A program made the position numbers and the translations under genes. The notes under the pieces are model-generated. The model searched no databases. It saw only the letters and a program-made list of their open reading frames with translations, and was not told the DNA's origin. This document shows, in pieces, positions 41 through 31,457 of a stretch of 64,000 bases of DNA. How positions within the stretch are numbered: the stretch's first letter is position 1; each line of letters begins with the position of its first letter. The stretch comes from an uncultured Paracoccaceae bacterium (GTDB lineage Bacteria; Pseudomonadota; Alphaproteobacteria; Rhodobacterales; Rhodobacteraceae): positions 248,001 through 312,000 of the forward strand of contig CALKXV010000009.1 of NCBI GenBank assembly GCA_938005545.1, written 5' to 3'.

Positions 41-1072
41 TCAATCCAAAGCGGTGACATCCACTTCAAGAAGAATATCGTCTTCCGGTGTGGTCTCTTG
101 ATTAAGTCCGAGAAGAGATTGAACGGCGTCTTCGACTTCATCCGTCACCTCTTTGTTGGCTGCCGCTTCTAGGGCTGCGCGCTGTGTATCGCTTTGGTTC
201 GCCAATGCGTCATCGAGAGACGCCAGATCTTCTTCTGCTGCCTCGTATGCTGCATTGTCTTCACGCTCTTGCTCAAGGGCAGAGATTTGTTCGTCCAGTT
301 CGACAATGTCGTCCGTGACGGATGCAATATCGCCTTCGATAGCCTCGTCAGTACCACCGGCCTCTTCCAGCGCGGCGAGCAAATCATCCAATTCATCCAG
401 ACGAGCCGCCTTTTCCGCATCAGTCTCTGTCAGCGCAAGATCGATTTCTGCACTGCCACGCTCTGGGGCTTCCAAGGCGTCAAGAATGGCCTGCGCCTCA
501 GCGCGTTCGGCTTCGAGCGCACGGGTCGCTTCGACTTCTTGAGCGTAAAGTGCCAACAAACCGACACGCGAGTTGGGAGACGCGTTGGCCAAGGCATTTG
601 GTGATGCATTGGCGGCGTTCAACGCACCCAATTCGCTGGGGTGCACGCCCAATGTCCGTGCCAACTTGTTTCCGCGGGGTTTGGGAGCGGTTGCCCCTGC
701 AGGGGCCTTAGCCACTTTGGTAACCGACTTGGTTTTCGCAACGCGCTTTACCTTTGGCGCGTCTTCTTTCTTCTTAAACAGATCACCAAGTGCTTTGATT
801 GGGTTTTTAGATGTCTGACGCGCGGTCGATTTTTGCTTCCCGCCCGACTGCCCTCTGCTGGCCCTAGACTTTCCACTATTCCCTTTGTCAGACGATCCAG
901 CGGACTTGCCGCTGTTTCCCTTGTCGCCGCTATTTCCGTTTCCTTTGCCGTTGCTCTTGTCTGAACCAGCATAGGCGGCGCCTGGCAGGGTGACTGTCGC
1001 TACAACGGCGGCACTTGCAAGAAGCGCCACAGACAGAGTTGAGATTTTCAAGAGGCCAGTGATAAAGTGCAT
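41..1072 (-). CDS. Secreted Gly/Asn/Ser-repeat protein with acidic C-terminal half
   Basis: The reading frame continues to 1135, but the ATG at 1072 fits best. It has GGAG about 8 bases upstream and opens a clear signal peptide (MHFITGLLKIS followed by an Ala/Val core ending AAYA). The product is 343 residues. After the signal come GNGNSG/KGNSGK-type low-complexity repeats (about 37-75), a basic Lys-rich stretch, a short LGVHPSELGALNAAN motif, and a long acidic, probably coiled-coil C-terminus rich in Glu, Asp and Ala. I do not recognise a catalytic domain. It is divergent from a second secreted protein with GNGNS repeats (1206-1745) and a two-component system, which suggests shared regulation. 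The function is unknown; a structural or matrix role is only a guess. Confidence 0.75.
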   Translation of the reverse strand: MHFITGLLKISTLSVALLASAAVVATVTLPGAAYAGSDKSNGKGNGNSGDKGNSGKSAGSSDKGNSGKSRASRGQSGGKQKSTARQTSKNPIKALGDLFKKKEDAPKVKRVAKTKSVTKVAKAPAGATAPKPRGNKLARTLGVHPSELGALNAANASPNALANASPNSRVGLLALYAQEVEATRALEAERAEAQAILDALEAPERGSAEIDLALTETDAEKAARLDELDDLLAALEEAGGTDEAIEGDIASVTDDIVELDEQISALEQEREDNAAYEAAEEDLASLDDALANQSDTQRAALEAAANKEVTDEVEDAVQSLLGLNQETTPEDDILLEVDVTALD

Positions 1073-1205
1073 AATTGTCTCCAAAATTTGTCGCGACCGT
1101 GCCATTTGGTTGCCGCGTTGACCGTCAATAATCACATTGCATATGAACGCCGACGCAACGCGCCGTTCATCCTGGGTTCAACTTGGGTGGTGTAGACCAA
1201 TTGGT

Positions 1206-1745
1206 ATGAAACGTTTTGTGTTGCCCATAGTCGTGATCATGTCAGGATCGTTTAGCAGCCCGGCATTTTCGGATGTACGCGAACTTGCGCGCAGCGAGTT
1301 GCGCGAAAGTGTACGCTTGGGGCACAGCATGAGTCTGTCCCGCTTGATGAAAGTTATGGATTCTAAAACGGACGGAAAACTTGTCGATGTTCGTGCGTTT
1401 GACGTCGGCGAAATCTATTACCATGTTCTTTTGAAGAAACCTGATGGAAGGCTGACAGTCGCCGTCGTCAACGCCAGAACTGGCAATTTCATGTCCAGGA
1501 ATTCTTCGGTTGTGAAAGACGTGATTCTAGCGACCAAAACAAAGAGCAATTCCAACAGAACCACGAATGCAAGTAATGCGGGCGGCAACGGAAACGGCAA
1601 CTCTCGCGGCAACGGAAATGGCAACTCTGGCGGGAACGGAAACGGCAACTCTGGCGGGAATGGAAACGGCAACTCTGGCGGGAATGGCGGAGGCAACTCT
1701 GGCGGCGGTGGTGGCGGCAACTCCGGCGGTAACGGAAAAAAGTAA
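1206..1745 (+). CDS. Secreted PepSY-like protein with C-terminal GGNGNGNS tandem repeats
   Basis: A signal peptide (MKRFVLPIVVIMSGSFSSPAFS) leads into a domain of about 85 residues. Its pattern (helix, then a strand pair YYHVLLKKPDGRLTVAVVNARTG) resembles PepSY domains, which are often encoded beside two-component systems and act in the periplasm. The C-terminus is six copies of an 8-residue unit of the GGNGNGNS type, encoded by 24-bp repeats at 1581-1724. I chose the start at 1206 because it opens the signal peptide; the frame is open back to 1137. The response regulator and kinase genes follow on the same strand after 61 bases. A role as periplasmic modulator of that kinase is inferred from context and family habit. 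Confidence 0.75.
   Translation: MKRFVLPIVVIMSGSFSSPAFSDVRELARSELRESVRLGHSMSLSRLMKVMDSKTDGKLVDVRAFDVGEIYYHVLLKKPDGRLTVAVVNARTGNFMSRNSSVVKDVILATKTKSNSNRTTNASNAGGNGNGNSRGNGNGNSGGNGNGNSGGNGNGNSGGNGGGNSGGGGGGNSGGNGKK
1581..1724 (+). repeat. Six 24-bp tandem repeats encoding GGNGNGNS units
   Basis: Six consecutive 24-base units encode GGNGNGNS, RGNGNGNS, GGNGNGNS twice, GGNGGGNS and GGGGGGNS. They keep the reading frame. The array lies inside the PepSY-like gene and is expected to vary in copy number through slippage or recombination. Confidence 0.9.
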
Positions 1746-1806
1746 AATCGCGATAAAAACCCATAAACGCCATACTCTCGCCGTGAGAAATGGCAACTAC
1801 CATTAG

Positions 1807-2466
1807 ATGCGAATCCTTATTGCCGAAGATGACGCGACGCTTGGTCAGCAAATCAAATCCGCTCTGGCAGAAGAAGGCCGTGCAGTTGATATTGCAACCG
1901 ACGGTGAAGAAGCGCTTTTTCTGGGATCAACCGAACCTTACGATCTTGTCGTTCTCGACGTCGGATTGCCCGAACGCGATGGCATTTCTGTCTTGAAAGA
2001 ATGGCGCAAGGAAAATGTCGCTACCCCCGTTTTGATCCTGACCGCACGTGATGGATGGTCCGAACGCGTTGATGGTCTCGATGCTGGTGCCGACGATTAC
2101 ATGACCAAGCCGTTCCATATGCCTGAGTTGTCAGCGCGAATAAGAGCCATGCTTCGCCGTCAATCAGGCAATGTTAATCCCGTCTTTCAATGCGGCCCCA
2201 TTGTCTTTGACAGCCGGACAAACAAAGTTCTGAACAATGGCATGCCCGTTTCGCTTACCGCTCAGGAGCTGTCTGTCTTGGCGTATATGTTCCACAATGC
2301 CAACCGAATGATTTCGCGTACCGAGCTATCCGAACACATTTACGAGTATGACGGCGACCGCGATTCCAACACCATTGCGGTCTTTGTCAATCGGCTGCGC
2401 AAGAAACTGGGTAAGGACCTGATCACAAGCGCGCGTGGTCAAGGCTACCAACTTAGCCTGGACTGA
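1807..2466 (+). CDS. OmpR/PhoP-family response regulator
   Basis: This is a 219-residue two-domain regulator. The receiver domain (1-115) has the acidic pocket EDD at 7-9, the phospho-acceptor Asp51 in VVLDVGLPERDG, and Lys101 in DDYMTKPF. The C-terminal winged helix (about 125-217) contains LTAQELSVLAYM and the recognition region with NTIAVFVNRLRKKL, as in PhoP-type regulators. Its stop overlaps the start of the kinase gene by one base, so the two are co-translated partners. The secreted PepSY-like gene just upstream is probably in the same operon. The natural signal is unknown; PhoP relatives often sense cations or envelope stress, but nothing here proves that. Confidence 0.93.
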   Translation: MRILIAEDDATLGQQIKSALAEEGRAVDIATDGEEALFLGSTEPYDLVVLDVGLPERDGISVLKEWRKENVATPVLILTARDGWSERVDGLDAGADDYMTKPFHMPELSARIRAMLRRQSGNVNPVFQCGPIVFDSRTNKVLNNGMPVSLTAQELSVLAYMFHNANRMISRTELSEHIYEYDGDRDSNTIAVFVNRLRKKLGKDLITSARGQGYQLSLD

Positions 2467-3821
2467 TGCGTTCGCTCCAAAGACGTGTGATCGTTGGTGG
2501 TCTTATCTGGGCCGTACTGACGACGGTCATAGGTGCATTTGCATTGAACGCGGTCTTCAGTCAAATCGCCGACCGTCGGTTTAACGAGACACTGCTTGAA
2601 CGTCATACTCAGGTCTTGGTTGCGTTGGCAACTTCCGGAACTCCCGCCCTTGTTGAAGACGTTCTGATCGATCCCTTCTACAATCGAGTTTATTCCGGTC
2701 GCTACTGGCAGATTTCAAACGCAAGCGGTATGCGCATAACGTCGCCGTCATTGTTTGATGCTGAATTGGATGACCCTGATAAAGTCGGGTTTTGGGAAAG
2801 TGCCGGACCAAACAGCATGATACGTGGGTACAGCGAAAGCGTGGTGCTTGACGATGAAACAGCCTGGTCTGTGTCGGTCGCACTGTCCCTAAGCGGGCTT
2901 GCAGCAGAAAGAGCTGAAATGCGCCGCAACGTCGCTTTGGCCTTTGGTTTGGTCGGCGCATTAGGCATTGCTTGCGCGGCCCTCCTAACGACGACACTGG
3001 TTGCTCCACTTCGACAACTTCGAGAAGACGTTACACACCGCTGGGACAGCGGCAAGTCTTTGGACCCTCATTCTTATCCGACAGAAGTCGCTCCATTGGT
3101 TAGTGACATCAACGCGTTGATCCAGCGCAATACCAAAATCGTCGATCAAGGAAGGCGACAGGCGGCGGATCTGGCGCATGCGCTTAAAACGCCGTCATCC
3201 GCTCTTCGCAACGAACTGGCGCGCTTGAGCCGAAGCGTTGACGGAACCGCTCCGCTTTTTGAGGCGCTCGATCGAATCGATGCCCAAATCACCCGGTCGT
3301 TAGCTCGAATGCGAGCCGCAACGGCCGCAGATGCCGTCGATGTCCAAACCGATCTTTTGCGTTCAGTCGCTCGCATGGAGCGTCTGTTTCAAGCCATGCC
3401 CGATGCCGAAGGTAAAGAATTTAAAGTAAACACAGTTGATGCGACGATTAATGTGGACGCACAGGACTTCGAAGAGATGCTGGGAAATCTCCTGGAAAAC
3501 GCATTCAAATGGTGCCGTCGCGAGGTACGACTGTCGGTTTCGAAGTTCGAACGCGCTGTCGAGATTACAATTGAAGATGACGGCCCAGGAATTCCCATCA
3601 AGCAACGGGAAATGGTGCTGCGCGAAGGCGCACGCCTTGACACGTCGATGCCTGGTACGGGCCTTGGGTTATCTATCGTCAACGATTTGGTTCAGGCCTA
3701 TGGCGGTGCCTTCGAATTGGAGACATCAGAAGCTTTAGGAGGTCTTTGCTGCAGGCTTCGTGTGCTTGTGGCCCACATTCAACTGGCCGATGATGAGCTT
3801 CGGCGCGAAACGCTCTGCTAG
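2466..3821 (+). CDS. PhoQ-like membrane sensor histidine kinase
   Basis: The 451-residue kinase has a transmembrane segment near 8-30, a periplasmic sensor region of about 120 residues, and a second membrane segment near 155-180. A HAMP-like linker follows, then the phospho-acceptor His238 in DLAHALKTP. The ATPase domain has the N box NLLENAFKW (Asn345), DDGPGIP and GTGLGLSIV. The overall layout resembles PhoQ. It overlaps the response regulator by one base, so the two form a cognate pair. The nearby PepSY-like secreted protein could act on the sensor domain; that is inference. Confidence 0.92.
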   Translation: MRSLQRRVIVGGLIWAVLTTVIGAFALNAVFSQIADRRFNETLLERHTQVLVALATSGTPALVEDVLIDPFYNRVYSGRYWQISNASGMRITSPSLFDAELDDPDKVGFWESAGPNSMIRGYSESVVLDDETAWSVSVALSLSGLAAERAEMRRNVALAFGLVGALGIACAALLTTTLVAPLRQLREDVTHRWDSGKSLDPHSYPTEVAPLVSDINALIQRNTKIVDQGRRQAADLAHALKTPSSALRNELARLSRSVDGTAPLFEALDRIDAQITRSLARMRAATAADAVDVQTDLLRSVARMERLFQAMPDAEGKEFKVNTVDATINVDAQDFEEMLGNLLENAFKWCRREVRLSVSKFERAVEITIEDDGPGIPIKQREMVLREGARLDTSMPGTGLGLSIVNDLVQAYGGAFELETSEALGGLCCRLRVLVAHIQLADDELRRETLC

Positions 3822-3920
3822 ATGAACCGAAAATGAATGCGTCGTTTTCTCTGCGTTCAGTCCGCGTTTGGTATTTCTTGTTTCGAGGGTCGTAAAACCG
3901 AAGAATCGGACGAGGTCACA

Positions 3921-4064
3921 ATGTTTGCTGCTACAAAGAAAACTGAAGCCAGCGTGGAACACTCCGCTGATGGCGCACGCTTCGAGCCTGTTAAGAAGAT
4001 TCTTATGCGTTGCGACGAAAAAACCATCGAATGTGCACGTTCCATGAAAGCTATAGCTGCCTGA
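3921..4064 (+). CDS. Possible 47-residue protein
   Basis: This short open frame has GAGG about 9 bases before its ATG and encodes a hydrophilic peptide (MFAATKKTEASV... to MKAIAA) with two cysteines and no signal or membrane segment. It sits in a 337-base gap after the kinase gene and could be the last gene of that operon. I recognise no family. The only support is the ribosome-binding site and position, so it could be non-coding. Confidence 0.35.
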   Translation: MFAATKKTEASVEHSADGARFEPVKKILMRCDEKTIECARSMKAIAA

Positions 4065-5085: not shown

Positions 5086-5958
5086 TTACTCACTCGGCTT
5101 CACAGCACCTCTTTTGCTTTGCAACCCAAAAAACAGCGCAACCGGAGTCGTAATCAAAAGGCCAATGATTCGGTTCAAACTTGCTGCTAAATATGCCGCT
5201 GCAGCAGGCAGCGCCACAATCGGAGCCAGCAATGCGGCAACTCCTTCGCGAACACCCAGCCCTGCAGGCACGATAGACACCGCTGCCCCCATCACGCTTG
5301 ATACTGTCAAAACGGATGCTTGTGAAAACAACGCCAAATGACCAAGTGCATGCAGACACCCGTAAATCCGGGCGGCATCAACAAAAACAAGACCAGTTTT
5401 GATGATCAATAGCCGCGTCATCACGCTCTGATCTGTCGCCAGCTTCGCACTCAGGAAAATGCACACTGCCAATGCAGCGATACCAATCGCCAGAAAAAGC
5501 AAGGCCAGTTGGTAAGAACTTACACCTAGCCATAGCCCTGAATATAAAAATGCGATGCCAATCCACAGGCCTGACACCAGCAGGGTTACAGCCGTACCCC
5601 GCTTTACCGTCGTGCCCGCAGCTTTTAGGGCAGCAACACGAACCATAGTGCCACCGGGGATAGGCAGCATATTGGCGACGCTGCCAATAATTGTAATCTC
5701 GGCGGCTTGAACCAATGAAAACCTTAGACCAACCAGCTTTGCAGATGCCTGAAATTCTAACATGTTGAGTGCGACCGTCACAGGAACCCCGATCACCGCA
5801 ACTGCGATCAGCGGTCCCCAATTTGGATTAGACAGGAGATCAGGCTGCGCGCGATATGACAGATAGATCCCCAAAACAAAGCCAATGGCCGCAACAATAA
5901 GAACAACACGCAACCACATGGGGCGCGTTTCAGACGTCACAGGGTTTTCATTTTCCAC
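5086..5958 (-). CDS. UPF0104 / lysylphosphatidylglycerol synthase transmembrane-region family protein
   Basis: This is an integral membrane protein of about 290 residues with roughly seven or eight hydrophobic segments. It has the family's C-terminal motif MGAAVSIVPAGLGVREGVAALL. Proteins of this type resemble the flippase-like membrane half of MprF and occur in polysaccharide and lipid gene sets. The start is uncertain: GTG at 5958 overlaps the upstream methyltransferase by 11 bases, ATG at 5919 leaves a short gap, and TTG at 5982 is possible. None has a strong ribosome-binding site. Co-transcription with the methyltransferase suggests a role in surface glycan or glycolipid handling; the substrate is unknown. 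Confidence 0.8.
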   Translation of the reverse strand: MENENPVTSETRPMWLRVVLIVAAIGFVLGIYLSYRAQPDLLSNPNWGPLIAVAVIGVPVTVALNMLEFQASAKLVGLRFSLVQAAEITIIGSVANMLPIPGGTMVRVAALKAAGTTVKRGTAVTLLVSGLWIGIAFLYSGLWLGVSSYQLALLFLAIGIAALAVCIFLSAKLATDQSVMTRLLIIKTGLVFVDAARIYGCLHALGHLALFSQASVLTVSSVMGAAVSIVPAGLGVREGVAALLAPIVALPAAAAYLAASLNRIIGLLITTPVALFFGLQSKRGAVKPSE

Positions 5959-6565
5959 ACGCGCACCATCGGGCTGTATCAATCAGCTTCATGTCGGGGG
6001 TAACTTTGCCAAGTTCATAGCCATTGGGCCAGATGCCGCTATTTTTCGGCGATAACAAAATACCATATGGCATTTTGGTCAGCCCGTTGCAGGTCACATC
6101 CACTTTGCGAAAGTCCGATGGCATCCGCCGCAAGGCAAATTCCGTGTAGCGGTAAAAATCGTGCGGTTCATCATGCAACGGAAATGCAAATGGTACGGCC
6201 ATTGCCAACTGCCCGCCATCGACCAGCGCGGCGTGCAGGTTTTTCACAGCTATTTGGAAATCATGAACATGTTCAAGAACATTTAGACACAAGACCACAT
6301 CATAGGCTGAAGTGATTTCCATATCCGAAATATCAAGCGGCTCATGTCCATATTCTGGATTCAAATCCGTCTGGCAAAACTCAGCCACGTCTTCAAATAT
6401 ATGAACGGCGGAATAGGCTTCCTTTCCCTTCACCTGCTTGCCGCTACCAATTTCCAACACGCGCCTTCCTTTTTCGGATGGAGCCATCTCGTGCAGCTTG
6501 CGATAGTAAAATTTTCGCGTACCGGTGATCGCCTGAAAAATTGGCCTGATAATCGTTTCAAGCAT
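5948..6565 (-). CDS. Class I SAM-dependent methyltransferase
   Basis: The product is 205 residues when started at ATG 6565; the frame is open back to 6730. Motif I is RRVLEIGSGK (about residues 31-40). An acidic strand end follows at QTDLNPEYG, then the DVVLCLNVLEHVHD motif typical of class I methyltransferases. The C-terminal part has HDFYRYTEFALRRM, common in methyltransferases of glycan clusters. It precedes the flippase-like gene in the same direction and diverges from the pyruvyl transferase gene. I infer modification of a surface polysaccharide or its lipid carrier; the acceptor is unknown. Confidence 0.83.
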   Translation of the reverse strand: MLETIIRPIFQAITGTRKFYYRKLHEMAPSEKGRRVLEIGSGKQVKGKEAYSAVHIFEDVAEFCQTDLNPEYGHEPLDISDMEITSAYDVVLCLNVLEHVHDFQIAVKNLHAALVDGGQLAMAVPFAFPLHDEPHDFYRYTEFALRRMPSDFRKVDVTCNGLTKMPYGILLSPKNSGIWPNGYELGKVTPDMKLIDTARWCACGK

Positions 6566-6774
6566 GTTTCTTACATTTCTAAGGTCATTAAAATCGGCGG
6601 CTGCCTGACAAACCGTATACCGAAATTGCCTGCGATAAACAGGGGTAACGGATTCAGCTTTCGACAAATCACCGCTGTCCGGCATGCCAGCGCCAATTTG
6701 ATAGCTCAAAAGCCTTGGATGTACCCTCACTTATGCTTAAACACGACTAACATCCAAAGGAGCAGCACCGCCTG

Positions 6775-7875
6775 ATGTATCTTATTCTGCACGCATTTAG
6801 TCGGCGCAACTCTGGCGATGGGTTGCTTGTCGATCTGACGTTAGAAGCATTGGCCGACGCGGGCATTGCCAAACAGGACTGCGCCATTCTGGCGCTTGAT
6901 CCTGATAGTTTTCCAGAAGCTCATCTAGTCTACCGCGCGCCTGGCGAACCCGCAGCGCGTATATCTGTTCGGCTGTTTCTAGCAGCACTTGAACTGGCTG
7001 GCGATACACTGACTGGTGGACGCATTGGGTCAGTTGCAAAACTGGTGACACAGGCTGACGGGCTTATCGCCGTCGGTGGCGGGTATCTGGTGGCAGACAG
7101 CCCTGTGCGACAAATAGGTGTATCATTGAACCATATGGTACAAATCTCTGCCGCCGCTCGCGTCCAAATTCCTACAATCTATCTTCCGCAAAGTATTGGC
7201 CCCCTACGTGGTCCGGTTGGGAGGGTAGCATTGAAAAAGCTTCGTAAAATAGACCGGCTGTATGTACGCGATGACCTGACGCTTGCTGAAATCGGGCATT
7301 ACAACACAAAACGTGTCGGCGATTTGGCGGTCTTGAAGCTTGCGCGGGACATCGCATCTATCAACCCAGTTCCACCCCAAGGTAAATCTATCATCGTCGC
7401 GCGCGATCTTCCCAATCCCGGTAGCTATCTCGACCGGATCAAAAATTTGGATGCCGCATTGCCCAACCCGCTTTGGGCTGTTCAAGCCGACACCGAAGGG
7501 CCACGAAGCGATCGCGCCTTTTACCAACGATTGGCTGTGCAAGACTGCGGATCATTCAGTGATTTACTAAAAACGGACACACCGGGCGTTGTCGTGTCTG
7601 TGCGTCTACATGGAGCGATTGCAGCACTTTTGGCGGGACGACCCGCGATCCATCTATCTTATGAACGAAAAGGGTGGGGTGCCTACGAAGATTTGGGCAT
7701 TGCAGATTACGTGCATGACGCCCGCGCTTTTGATGTCGAACTAGTTGCGGATCAAGTGCGGGCACTTAATGCCAATCCGGCCCTATTTTGGGATCGTATT
7801 CGCGCAGCGGCGCCCGTTTTGAAAACGCAGTACGGTGACTTGGTCAGCGATCTGCGAGCGCGTTTGATCGGCTAG
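6775..7875 (+). CDS. Polysaccharide pyruvyl transferase family protein
   Basis: This 366-residue protein fits the polysaccharide pyruvyl transferase (CsaB/WcaK-like) fold. It opens with a glycine-rich nucleotide-like segment (RRNSGDGLLVDL), then has GLIAVGGGYLV, the PQSIGPLRG loop, LYVRDDLTL, and the C-terminal VSVRLHGAIAALLAGRPAIHLSYERKG. These match the family, which transfers pyruvate from phosphoenolpyruvate to sugars of surface polymers. The RLH segment is the expected active-site region. It converges with the glycosyltransferase gene, overlapping it by 32 bases. Confidence 0.88.
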   Translation: MYLILHAFSRRNSGDGLLVDLTLEALADAGIAKQDCAILALDPDSFPEAHLVYRAPGEPAARISVRLFLAALELAGDTLTGGRIGSVAKLVTQADGLIAVGGGYLVADSPVRQIGVSLNHMVQISAAARVQIPTIYLPQSIGPLRGPVGRVALKKLRKIDRLYVRDDLTLAEIGHYNTKRVGDLAVLKLARDIASINPVPPQGKSIIVARDLPNPGSYLDRIKNLDAALPNPLWAVQADTEGPRSDRAFYQRLAVQDCGSFSDLLKTDTPGVVVSVRLHGAIAALLAGRPAIHLSYERKGWGAYEDLGIADYVHDARAFDVELVADQVRALNANPALFWDRIRAAAPVLKTQYGDLVSDLRARLIG

Positions 7876-9088
7876 GCGCAGCACCAAGATCAACGTCGCC
7901 CCGTTCGATAACCATCAAATATTCGCCAATCAGCTGGTCCCACCGGTATCGGTTCGCGATCCTGCTTAACACCTTTGCGTGGTTCGCCACGGTCTTTGAG
8001 CCTCGCGATAGCAGCCGTTTTATGGCATCCGCAAATGCAGTCGCGTCCGCAGGATCATCCAGCAATTCAATGCAATCCGCCATCTCAGGCCATTCTTCCA
8101 GAAGCGTAATATTAGTGTCCCTCGACGCGATAATCGGTTTCCCGGCCGCCATCGCCTCTAGCACCGAAACCGGCAAACCTTCAACGTCGCCGTTCGTTGA
8201 CACAGATGAGAAAATCATCGAAAAACAATCATCGAAAAACTGCTGCTTTTCATCGCCAGTGATGAACCCGGTGAACGTCACATCTGACTCCTCTGGCATG
8301 GCCTTTATACTGTCTGCATCCTCACCATCCCCAGCAATCGCTATCTTGGGACGATGTCCGGCTTTGGCCATCATCTCGGCCGCAGCAATCAGGTGGTTGA
8401 TTCCTTTTTTGCGGGACAGGCGCGATATCGTTCCCAATGCGTATTTGTAATTATCAGACTCTGTTAGGTCGGGTGCGTCGGACACCTGCATCGCCACCCC
8501 CATAGGAAGGACATTGCACAGCAAGCCGGGTACAATTTCTTGGGCGGTGTGGCGTTGATTAATATTCACGCAGAAAAACGCCTGCGCGTTGGTTAAAATA
8601 CGACGCGCCAATAAGGTGCCAAACCGACCAAGCTTTTGAAACACAGCCAAATCGGACGAATGGTTTTGTAAAATATACGGCACGCCAGTAGACCGGTTAA
8701 GCCGTTGTGCGACAACCCCCTGAGGCATCACCCAATGCGCGTAGATCAGGTCAATGTTATGATCTTTGATTAACCGCTTTGCCGCACGATACTGCGCCCA
8801 TAAATAGAACGGTATTTGCAATGCCAGCAATGGGTTGCGTCGCAAATTCGGCATGATCGCCGGATATGCAAGACGTTGCCACTGCACAGGCCACATATAG
8901 CGAAAGCGCTGAACTGAATTTCCATTGTTCTGCTCGGCTGTTGCTGCCTGCGCATCATGCGGGGCAAGAATGTATAAGTTGTCATCAGGCCGAGCCTGTT
9001 TCCACGCCGTGGCTTGTTCCAAAACAAACGGTGCTTGGTGATCCCCTTCAAAACGCGGCAGCGTCGATGTCAGGAACAAAACATTCAT
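7844..9088 (-). CDS. GT-B glycosyltransferase, family 4 type
   Basis: The 414-residue protein has the two-domain GT-B layout. The N-terminal domain starts MNVLFLTSTLPRFEGDHQAPFV. The C-terminal Glycos_transf_1 domain has GTISRLSRKKGINHLI, IAGDGEDADSI, and the EGLPVSVLEAMAAGKPIIAS motif with the conserved E-x7-E spacing. Such enzymes move a sugar from a nucleotide donor to a lipid-linked or protein acceptor. Its tail overlaps the pyruvyl transferase gene on the other strand by 32 bases. It is part of the small polysaccharide set; donor and acceptor cannot be read from sequence. Confidence 0.9.
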   Translation of the reverse strand: MNVLFLTSTLPRFEGDHQAPFVLEQATAWKQARPDDNLYILAPHDAQAATAEQNNGNSVQRFRYMWPVQWQRLAYPAIMPNLRRNPLLALQIPFYLWAQYRAAKRLIKDHNIDLIYAHWVMPQGVVAQRLNRSTGVPYILQNHSSDLAVFQKLGRFGTLLARRILTNAQAFFCVNINQRHTAQEIVPGLLCNVLPMGVAMQVSDAPDLTESDNYKYALGTISRLSRKKGINHLIAAAEMMAKAGHRPKIAIAGDGEDADSIKAMPEESDVTFTGFITGDEKQQFFDDCFSMIFSSVSTNGDVEGLPVSVLEAMAAGKPIIASRDTNITLLEEWPEMADCIELLDDPADATAFADAIKRLLSRGSKTVANHAKVLSRIANRYRWDQLIGEYLMVIERGDVDLGAAPSRSNALADR

Positions 9089-31413: not shown

Positions 31414-31457
31414 ACCGACGCAATACCGACGTGATACCGACGCAATACCGACGTGGT
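31414..31457. repeat. Four 11-bp tandem repeats
   Basis: Four adjacent 11-base units alternate ACCGACGCAAT and ACCGACGTGAT (the last ends GGT). They lie in the 279-base gap between the 76-residue gene and the alkyl-DNA repair gene. The 11-base period puts each copy roughly on the same helix face. Confidence 0.9.

Follow-up and report, generated by a model that had tools for sequence, protein, structure and literature searches.

A conserved Rhodobacteraceae gene set pairing a Gly/Asn-tailed PepSY protein with a two-component system under a shared predicted operator

We identified a gene set in Rhodobacteraceae in which an exported PepSY-domain protein with a disordered Gly/Asn tail is encoded 5' of an OmpR-family response regulator and a sensor histidine kinase, with a second exported protein (CC) divergent from it and a small gene after the kinase. 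Sequence comparisons support CC, PepSY, regulator and kinase as a conserved unit, which is common to marine and freshwater relatives of Rhodobacter. The four-half-site operator found at CC/PepSY and again at the small gene is new here. The locus is probably a Rhodobacteraceae-specific form of the DbfQRS-type, PepSY-modulated two-component module, whose regulator would act on CC and the small protein in addition to its own operon. The window, i.e., the whole stretch of DNA analyzed, comprises 64,000 nucleotides from an uncultured Paracoccaceae bacterium, and the features of the module are listed in Table 1. A sequence-only reading had already placed CC, PepSY, regulator and kinase at these positions, with PepSY ahead of the regulator/kinase pair, as we also found; the 47-codon gene was absent from it.

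Table 1. Features of the module, numbered by position in the window
Feature	Position	Strand	Description
CC gene	41-1072	-	Start ATG at 1072 chosen, inferred from operator spacing and relatives; longest ORF extends to 1135
Operator 1	1145-1180		Between CC and PepSY; GAACGCCGACGCAACGCGCCGTTCATCCTGGGTTCA; four half-sites in two divergent arms
-10-like element	1191-1196	+	TGTAGA; 3' of operator 1, ~10 nt 5' of PepSY ATG
PepSY gene	1206-1745	+	Signal peptide, PepSY domain at about residues 24-115, disordered Gly/Asn tail
Tandem repeat array	1581-1738	+	24-bp repeat encoding GNGNS-type units (TRF)
Response regulator	1807-2466	+	OmpR family, PmrA/PhoP-like; Response_reg, Trans_reg_C
Sensor histidine kinase	2466-3821	+	Periplasmic PDC/single-Cache-like sensor domain; HATPase_c; H-box DLAHALKTP
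Operator 2	3823-3858		5' of small gene; minus strand reads GAACGCAGAGAAAACGACGCATTCATTTTCGGTTCA
Small gene	3921-4064	+	47 aa, without signal peptide; RFxPV core

Among 394 genomes of the family, a PepSY match was detected in 41 and was strong in 17, and all 17 strong loci had the tail. The regulator and kinase followed PepSY in each of the 16 strong loci that could be assessed; CC was divergent in 8 of these and lay ~2 kb off in one more. A contig scan from the CC side gave 45 loci, 43 of which belonged to Rhodobacteraceae (Ruegeria, Tateyamaria, Tabrizicola, Rhodobacter, Gemmobacter, Litoreibacter and others). A divergent PepSY-tail/regulator/kinase set was present in 41 of these 43 named loci, and the remaining two were at contig ends. 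The sequence-only reading had made its proposal depend on linkage of the repeat proteins to the two-component system in relatives, and this linkage was thus retained. No CC gene was present nearby in module genomes G003, G091, G217, G219 and G385. In two genomes (L018 10358-12099 and L020 7413-9202), the place of CC, divergent from PepSY, was taken by genes resembling those of the TadE/TadG pilus type. The weaker PepSY matches examined were PepSY-regulator-kinase operons whose PepSY proteins had no Gly/Asn tail, some of them with an acidic tail; acidic runs (e.g., EDEDEDD) occurred in operons L094-L096 where the tail clade has Gly/Asn.

The PepSY protein of the window had no Pfam PepSY match by itself, and single-sequence Pfam and NCBIfam searches with PepSY and CC returned only weak low-complexity matches. 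In the PepSY alignment, 23 of the 28 members matched PF03413 (best E 2.3e-5). A fold model had pLDDT >90 in the PepSY domain and <60 in the tail, and its top structural matches were CD1622, YpmB, YpeB and UipA, with Z scores of 5.8-7.7 over ~60 residues; such scores (<8) are weak by themselves, and the assignment is also backed by the Pfam sequence matches. By the profile match of the alignment and the modelled fold, the exported protein can be assigned to the PepSY domain family. The six 24-bp GNGNS-type units noted earlier after this domain were recovered as a TRF array (24-bp period, 6.6 copies, 82% matches) and read GGNGNGNS, RGNGNGNS, GGNGNGNS, GGNGNGNS, GGNGGGNS and GGGGGGNS. Across 41 named relatives, the tail consisted of 28-106 residues, 88-97% of them Gly, Asn and Ser, and its end was basic in 39 (GKK in the window protein). 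RTX calcium-binding repeats (nonapeptide GGxGxDxUx) were considered and rejected, because the tail has a period of 8, no Asp and no hydrophobic position.

Mismatches to the repeat consensus were distributed over codon positions 3:1:2 as 11:4:3 (11 of 18 at the third position), and because of this excess the amino-acid repeat looks conserved beyond the DNA alone. A similar tail is found in an exported FecR-domain protein encoded nearby (see below). One may argue that the tails are nothing more than low-complexity linkers in all three proteins (PepSY, CC and FecR), shared through codon slippage and composition, and the variable tail length, the occurrence of CC relatives elsewhere with similar repeats and without the system, and the different codons used by the FecR and PepSY repeats would agree with this. 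We consider this explanation rather unlikely: the tail was kept in all 58 tail-clade PepSY proteins seen and was absent from the sister PepSY proteins examined, the basic end and the excess of third-position differences also speak against it, and the strong repeat is confined to this cluster in this genome, in which a repeat-only query of all 3.96 Mb matched the PepSY and FecR genes only. Furthermore, the third-position differences and the different codons of FecR and PepSY argue that recent DNA copying or pure slippage does not explain the shared peptide. The Gly/Asn tail is most simply viewed as a flexible arm that reaches a partner in the envelope. A more far-reaching idea, which we find doubtful, is that the tails form a shared "address" through which PepSY, CC and FecR co-assemble on one partner in the envelope or matrix, with the kinase reading the state of the assembly via PepSY release; if true, the kinase would be sensing its own secreted low-complexity scaffold.

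The regulator and kinase had been described as a PhoP/PhoQ-like pair. The best NCBIfam model for the regulator was PmrA (216 bits, cut-off 330), and PhoP gave 187 bits (cut-off 336); that for the kinase was PhoQ (125 bits, cut-off 497), and PmrB gave 110 bits (cut-off 314). With all scores below the equivalog cut-offs, the pair was accepted neither as PhoP/PhoQ nor as PmrA/PmrB orthologues. The kinase sensor was modelled as a PDC/Cache-like domain, and structure searches gave Cache/PDC-type matches, none of them decisive. On the kinase tree, tail-clade kinases were split from the kinases of tail-less PepSY operons by a 99/99 branch, with a single change of label (tail or tail-less). The tail-less operons of the family (L021-L023, L094-L097) have the identical order PepSY, regulator, kinase; they differ from the tail clade in having no Gly/Asn tail (several are acidic), in their separate kinase branch and in the operator, which was not found in them, including when sought as the simple box described below. 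In the alphaproteobacterium Sinorhizobium, the PhoPQ-like pair FeuPQ is modulated by the small periplasmic protein FeuN, which is likened to the present case by description only.

In the available text of the DbfQRS report, the PepSY protein DbfQ of Vibrio cholerae is encoded 5' of dbfRS and binds the sensor domain of DbfS, shifting it towards phosphatase activity, and the regulator is activated by outer-membrane damage (PMC12714742). This is an experimental precedent for the suggestion, made in the sequence-only reading, that PepSY modulates the adjacent kinase. According to the same text, PepSY/two-component neighbourhoods are >60 times commoner than chance (PMC12714742). DbfQRS-like modules are recognized by a PepSY-only secreted protein within four genes of a kinase/regulator, and here this protein is immediately upstream. 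As far as the text describes DbfQRS, both modules have a small Sec-exported PepSY protein directly 5' of the regulator and kinase in one operon, and a kinase with a periplasmic sensor domain. DbfQ is described there as a 135-aa protein with one PepSY domain, and no Gly/Asn tail is mentioned, which makes the tail an addition here; nor does that text report a divergent repeat protein, a small third gene or a four-half-site operator (PMC12714742). PA2658/PA2659, located beside BqsRS of Pseudomonas aeruginosa, are another example of PepSY adjoining a two-component system; they are two PepSY proteins for which no repeat tail is reported in the available text (as cited in PMC12714742). PepSY proteins beside kinases are a widespread class, recognized only recently, and the term "undescribed", previously applied to this locus, was overstated, as PepSY/two-component modules were described as a class in 2025. 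We found no paper on this particular module in the open-licence literature.

A GTTCAT-N5-GTTCA box was present 5' of PepSY, ~40 nt from its ATG, in the first seven genomes. Of the 17 family PepSY loci, 15 had this simple box at ≤2 mismatches; in the named loci, 38 of the 41 intergenic regions had it at ≤1 mismatch (31 exact), compared with a background of 5 in 1345 same-length windows at ≤1 mismatch and none exact. Alignment revealed a site of four half-sites ~11 bp apart (TTGAAC, AAC, GTTCAT and GTTCA), the left pair being inverted relative to the right, and the full pattern was written as GAAC-N8-AAY-N5-GTTCA-N6-GTTMA. At ≤1 mismatch, it gave 32 hits in 18 genomes, corresponding to 27 places (five were read on both strands), and the reversed-pattern control gave none. 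Of these places, 13 were at PepSY and eight at the small gene; a further one was at an unlinked CC gene, and five were unassigned. The 3.96 Mb genome contained the full operator exactly twice, both times in the module (operator 1 with 0 mismatches, operator 2 with 1). In G010, G147 and G292, the small gene is on a contig other than that of PepSY and retained the operator, and in G292 the operator was also present at the unlinked CC gene beside ilvA; because the operator stays with the small and CC genes where linkage is broken, its association with the regulator is supported.

Operator matches without an assigned module gene were observed at L256 and L270 (G091), at G147:C514:214 and at L262 (G285), that of L256 being 5' of an uncharacterized gene for a possible membrane protein. 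In a search with the simple box for regulon members outside the module, most further sites were inside genes or had no properly spaced gene; in the genome of the window, one exact box was inside a long helicase-like ORF, and no further candidate regulon members were found beyond the module genes.

The TA of the -10-like element was conserved at +28/+29 from the first GTTCAT. With this element only ~10 nt before the ATG and conserved in relatives, PepSY mRNA is likely nearly leaderless. A -10-like TA was present ~17-18 nt past the outer half-site in each arm (for the CC side, by reading of the alignment), and this equal distance suggests that the divergent CC and PepSY promoters are alike in design. 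Such a layout is expected of an OmpR-family activator overlapping the -35 region. It is likely that the regulator controls both exported genes via the shared predicted operator.

The CC protein of the window has a signal peptide and, at its mature N-terminus, a short Gly/Asn/Ser/Lys repeat; it further contains an acidic coiled coil and a conserved core (SELGALNAANASPNALANASPNSRVG, also given as SELGALNAANAS...NASPNSRVG). The earlier statement that both divergent exported proteins carry Gly/Asn repeats held in general, with the qualification that this genome has only a weak CC repeat (NGKGNGNSGDKGNSGKS), the repeat being long in relatives. CC belongs to a family that is wide in Rhodobacteraceae, with Gly/Asn repeats directly after the signal peptide and, in many genomes, no link to the PepSY system; its unlinked genes are often located between ilvA and argG (L202-L221). 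Profile matches below ~130 bits are partly low-complexity, and 20 that were inspected were real members of this wide family. No operator was seen in 20 CC loci of module-less genomes, many of them at the ilvA-CC-argG site. Since CC proteins with such repeats are common without the system, the repeat does not necessarily point to joint function, and by itself the shared repeat is weaker evidence for it than the shared operator.

The similar promoters of CC and PepSY, together with the structural appearance of CC proteins (repeat plus coiled coil), could also mean that both are output and that PepSY does not modulate the kinase. They would then be structural components of the envelope or matrix, their genes simply co-regulated with a two-component system that responds to some other cue. 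We regard this as improbable, given that PepSY and kinase share an operon wherever this could be assessed, which is also the arrangement in DbfQRS modules, and that tail type and kinase branch go together. It is very improbable that the operator is the site of a different regulator that controls these genes by coincidence: boxes of OmpR-family regulators do resemble one another, but the presence of the operator followed that of this regulator, in that it was seen in 16 of the 18 genomes tested and was absent from the 20 module-less CC loci and the tail-less PepSY operons.

For the preferred DbfQRS-type module, we propose the following sequence of events. The PepSY domain would be exported to the periplasm and bind the PDC-type sensor domain of the kinase and, if it acts like DbfQ, bias the kinase towards phosphatase activity. 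Envelope conditions that draw PepSY off would then allow the kinase to phosphorylate the regulator, which would bind both four-half-site operators and control three transcripts: its own operon, the divergent exported CC and the small cytoplasmic protein. Control of its own operon would lead to PepSY being made again and close a feedback loop. The disordered, nearly uncharged tail with its basic end may serve as a flexible tether or ligand-binding arm holding PepSY. Its partner, probably also that of CC and, in this genome, FecR, could be one envelope component, e.g., polysaccharide, peptidoglycan or each other. For such a linked envelope-sensing unit, the regulatory part is well supported by sequence comparison, and control of the kinase by PepSY is proposed by analogy. 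The predicted regulon is compact, with three transcripts, two operators and an exported partner, and its tail type tracks one kinase branch. Culturable strains of Ruegeria or Tabrizicola would permit a direct test of what frees PepSY from the kinase.

The small gene is predicted to be the third member of this regulon. Its products are encoded by ~47-70 codons and have no signal peptide and a core of RF-P-V/I-E...L. Best matches in the 394 genomes were almost all from module-bearing genomes, and the operator was present at similar spacing 5' of the gene in ~30 relatives. Homology among the small proteins rests on this short core, together with position and operator. As a guess, the protein may act as a cytoplasmic feedback or connector protein.

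Several additional genes were observed around the module. The exported FecR-domain protein, which has a Gly/Asn tail (NAGGNGNGN), is encoded just outside the window (window -1060 to -299; L004 12940-13701), on the strand of CC and beyond it. A FecR relative with a clear Gly/Asn-rich tail was found only in G047 (L248), so that FecR linkage is not general. The next gene, also beside the module in this genome, codes for a CHASE2-GGDEF-EAL protein (window -3862 to -1121; L004 10138-12879). On the 3' side, window 5086-9088 contains genes that read like polysaccharide functions (the first gene was scanned), with an LPG-synthase-like membrane protein, a methyltransferase, a pyruvyl-transferase-like protein and a glycosyltransferase as products. 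A short tandem repeat of the ACCGACGCAAT type (22-bp unit, 1.9 copies) is present at window 31414-31455.
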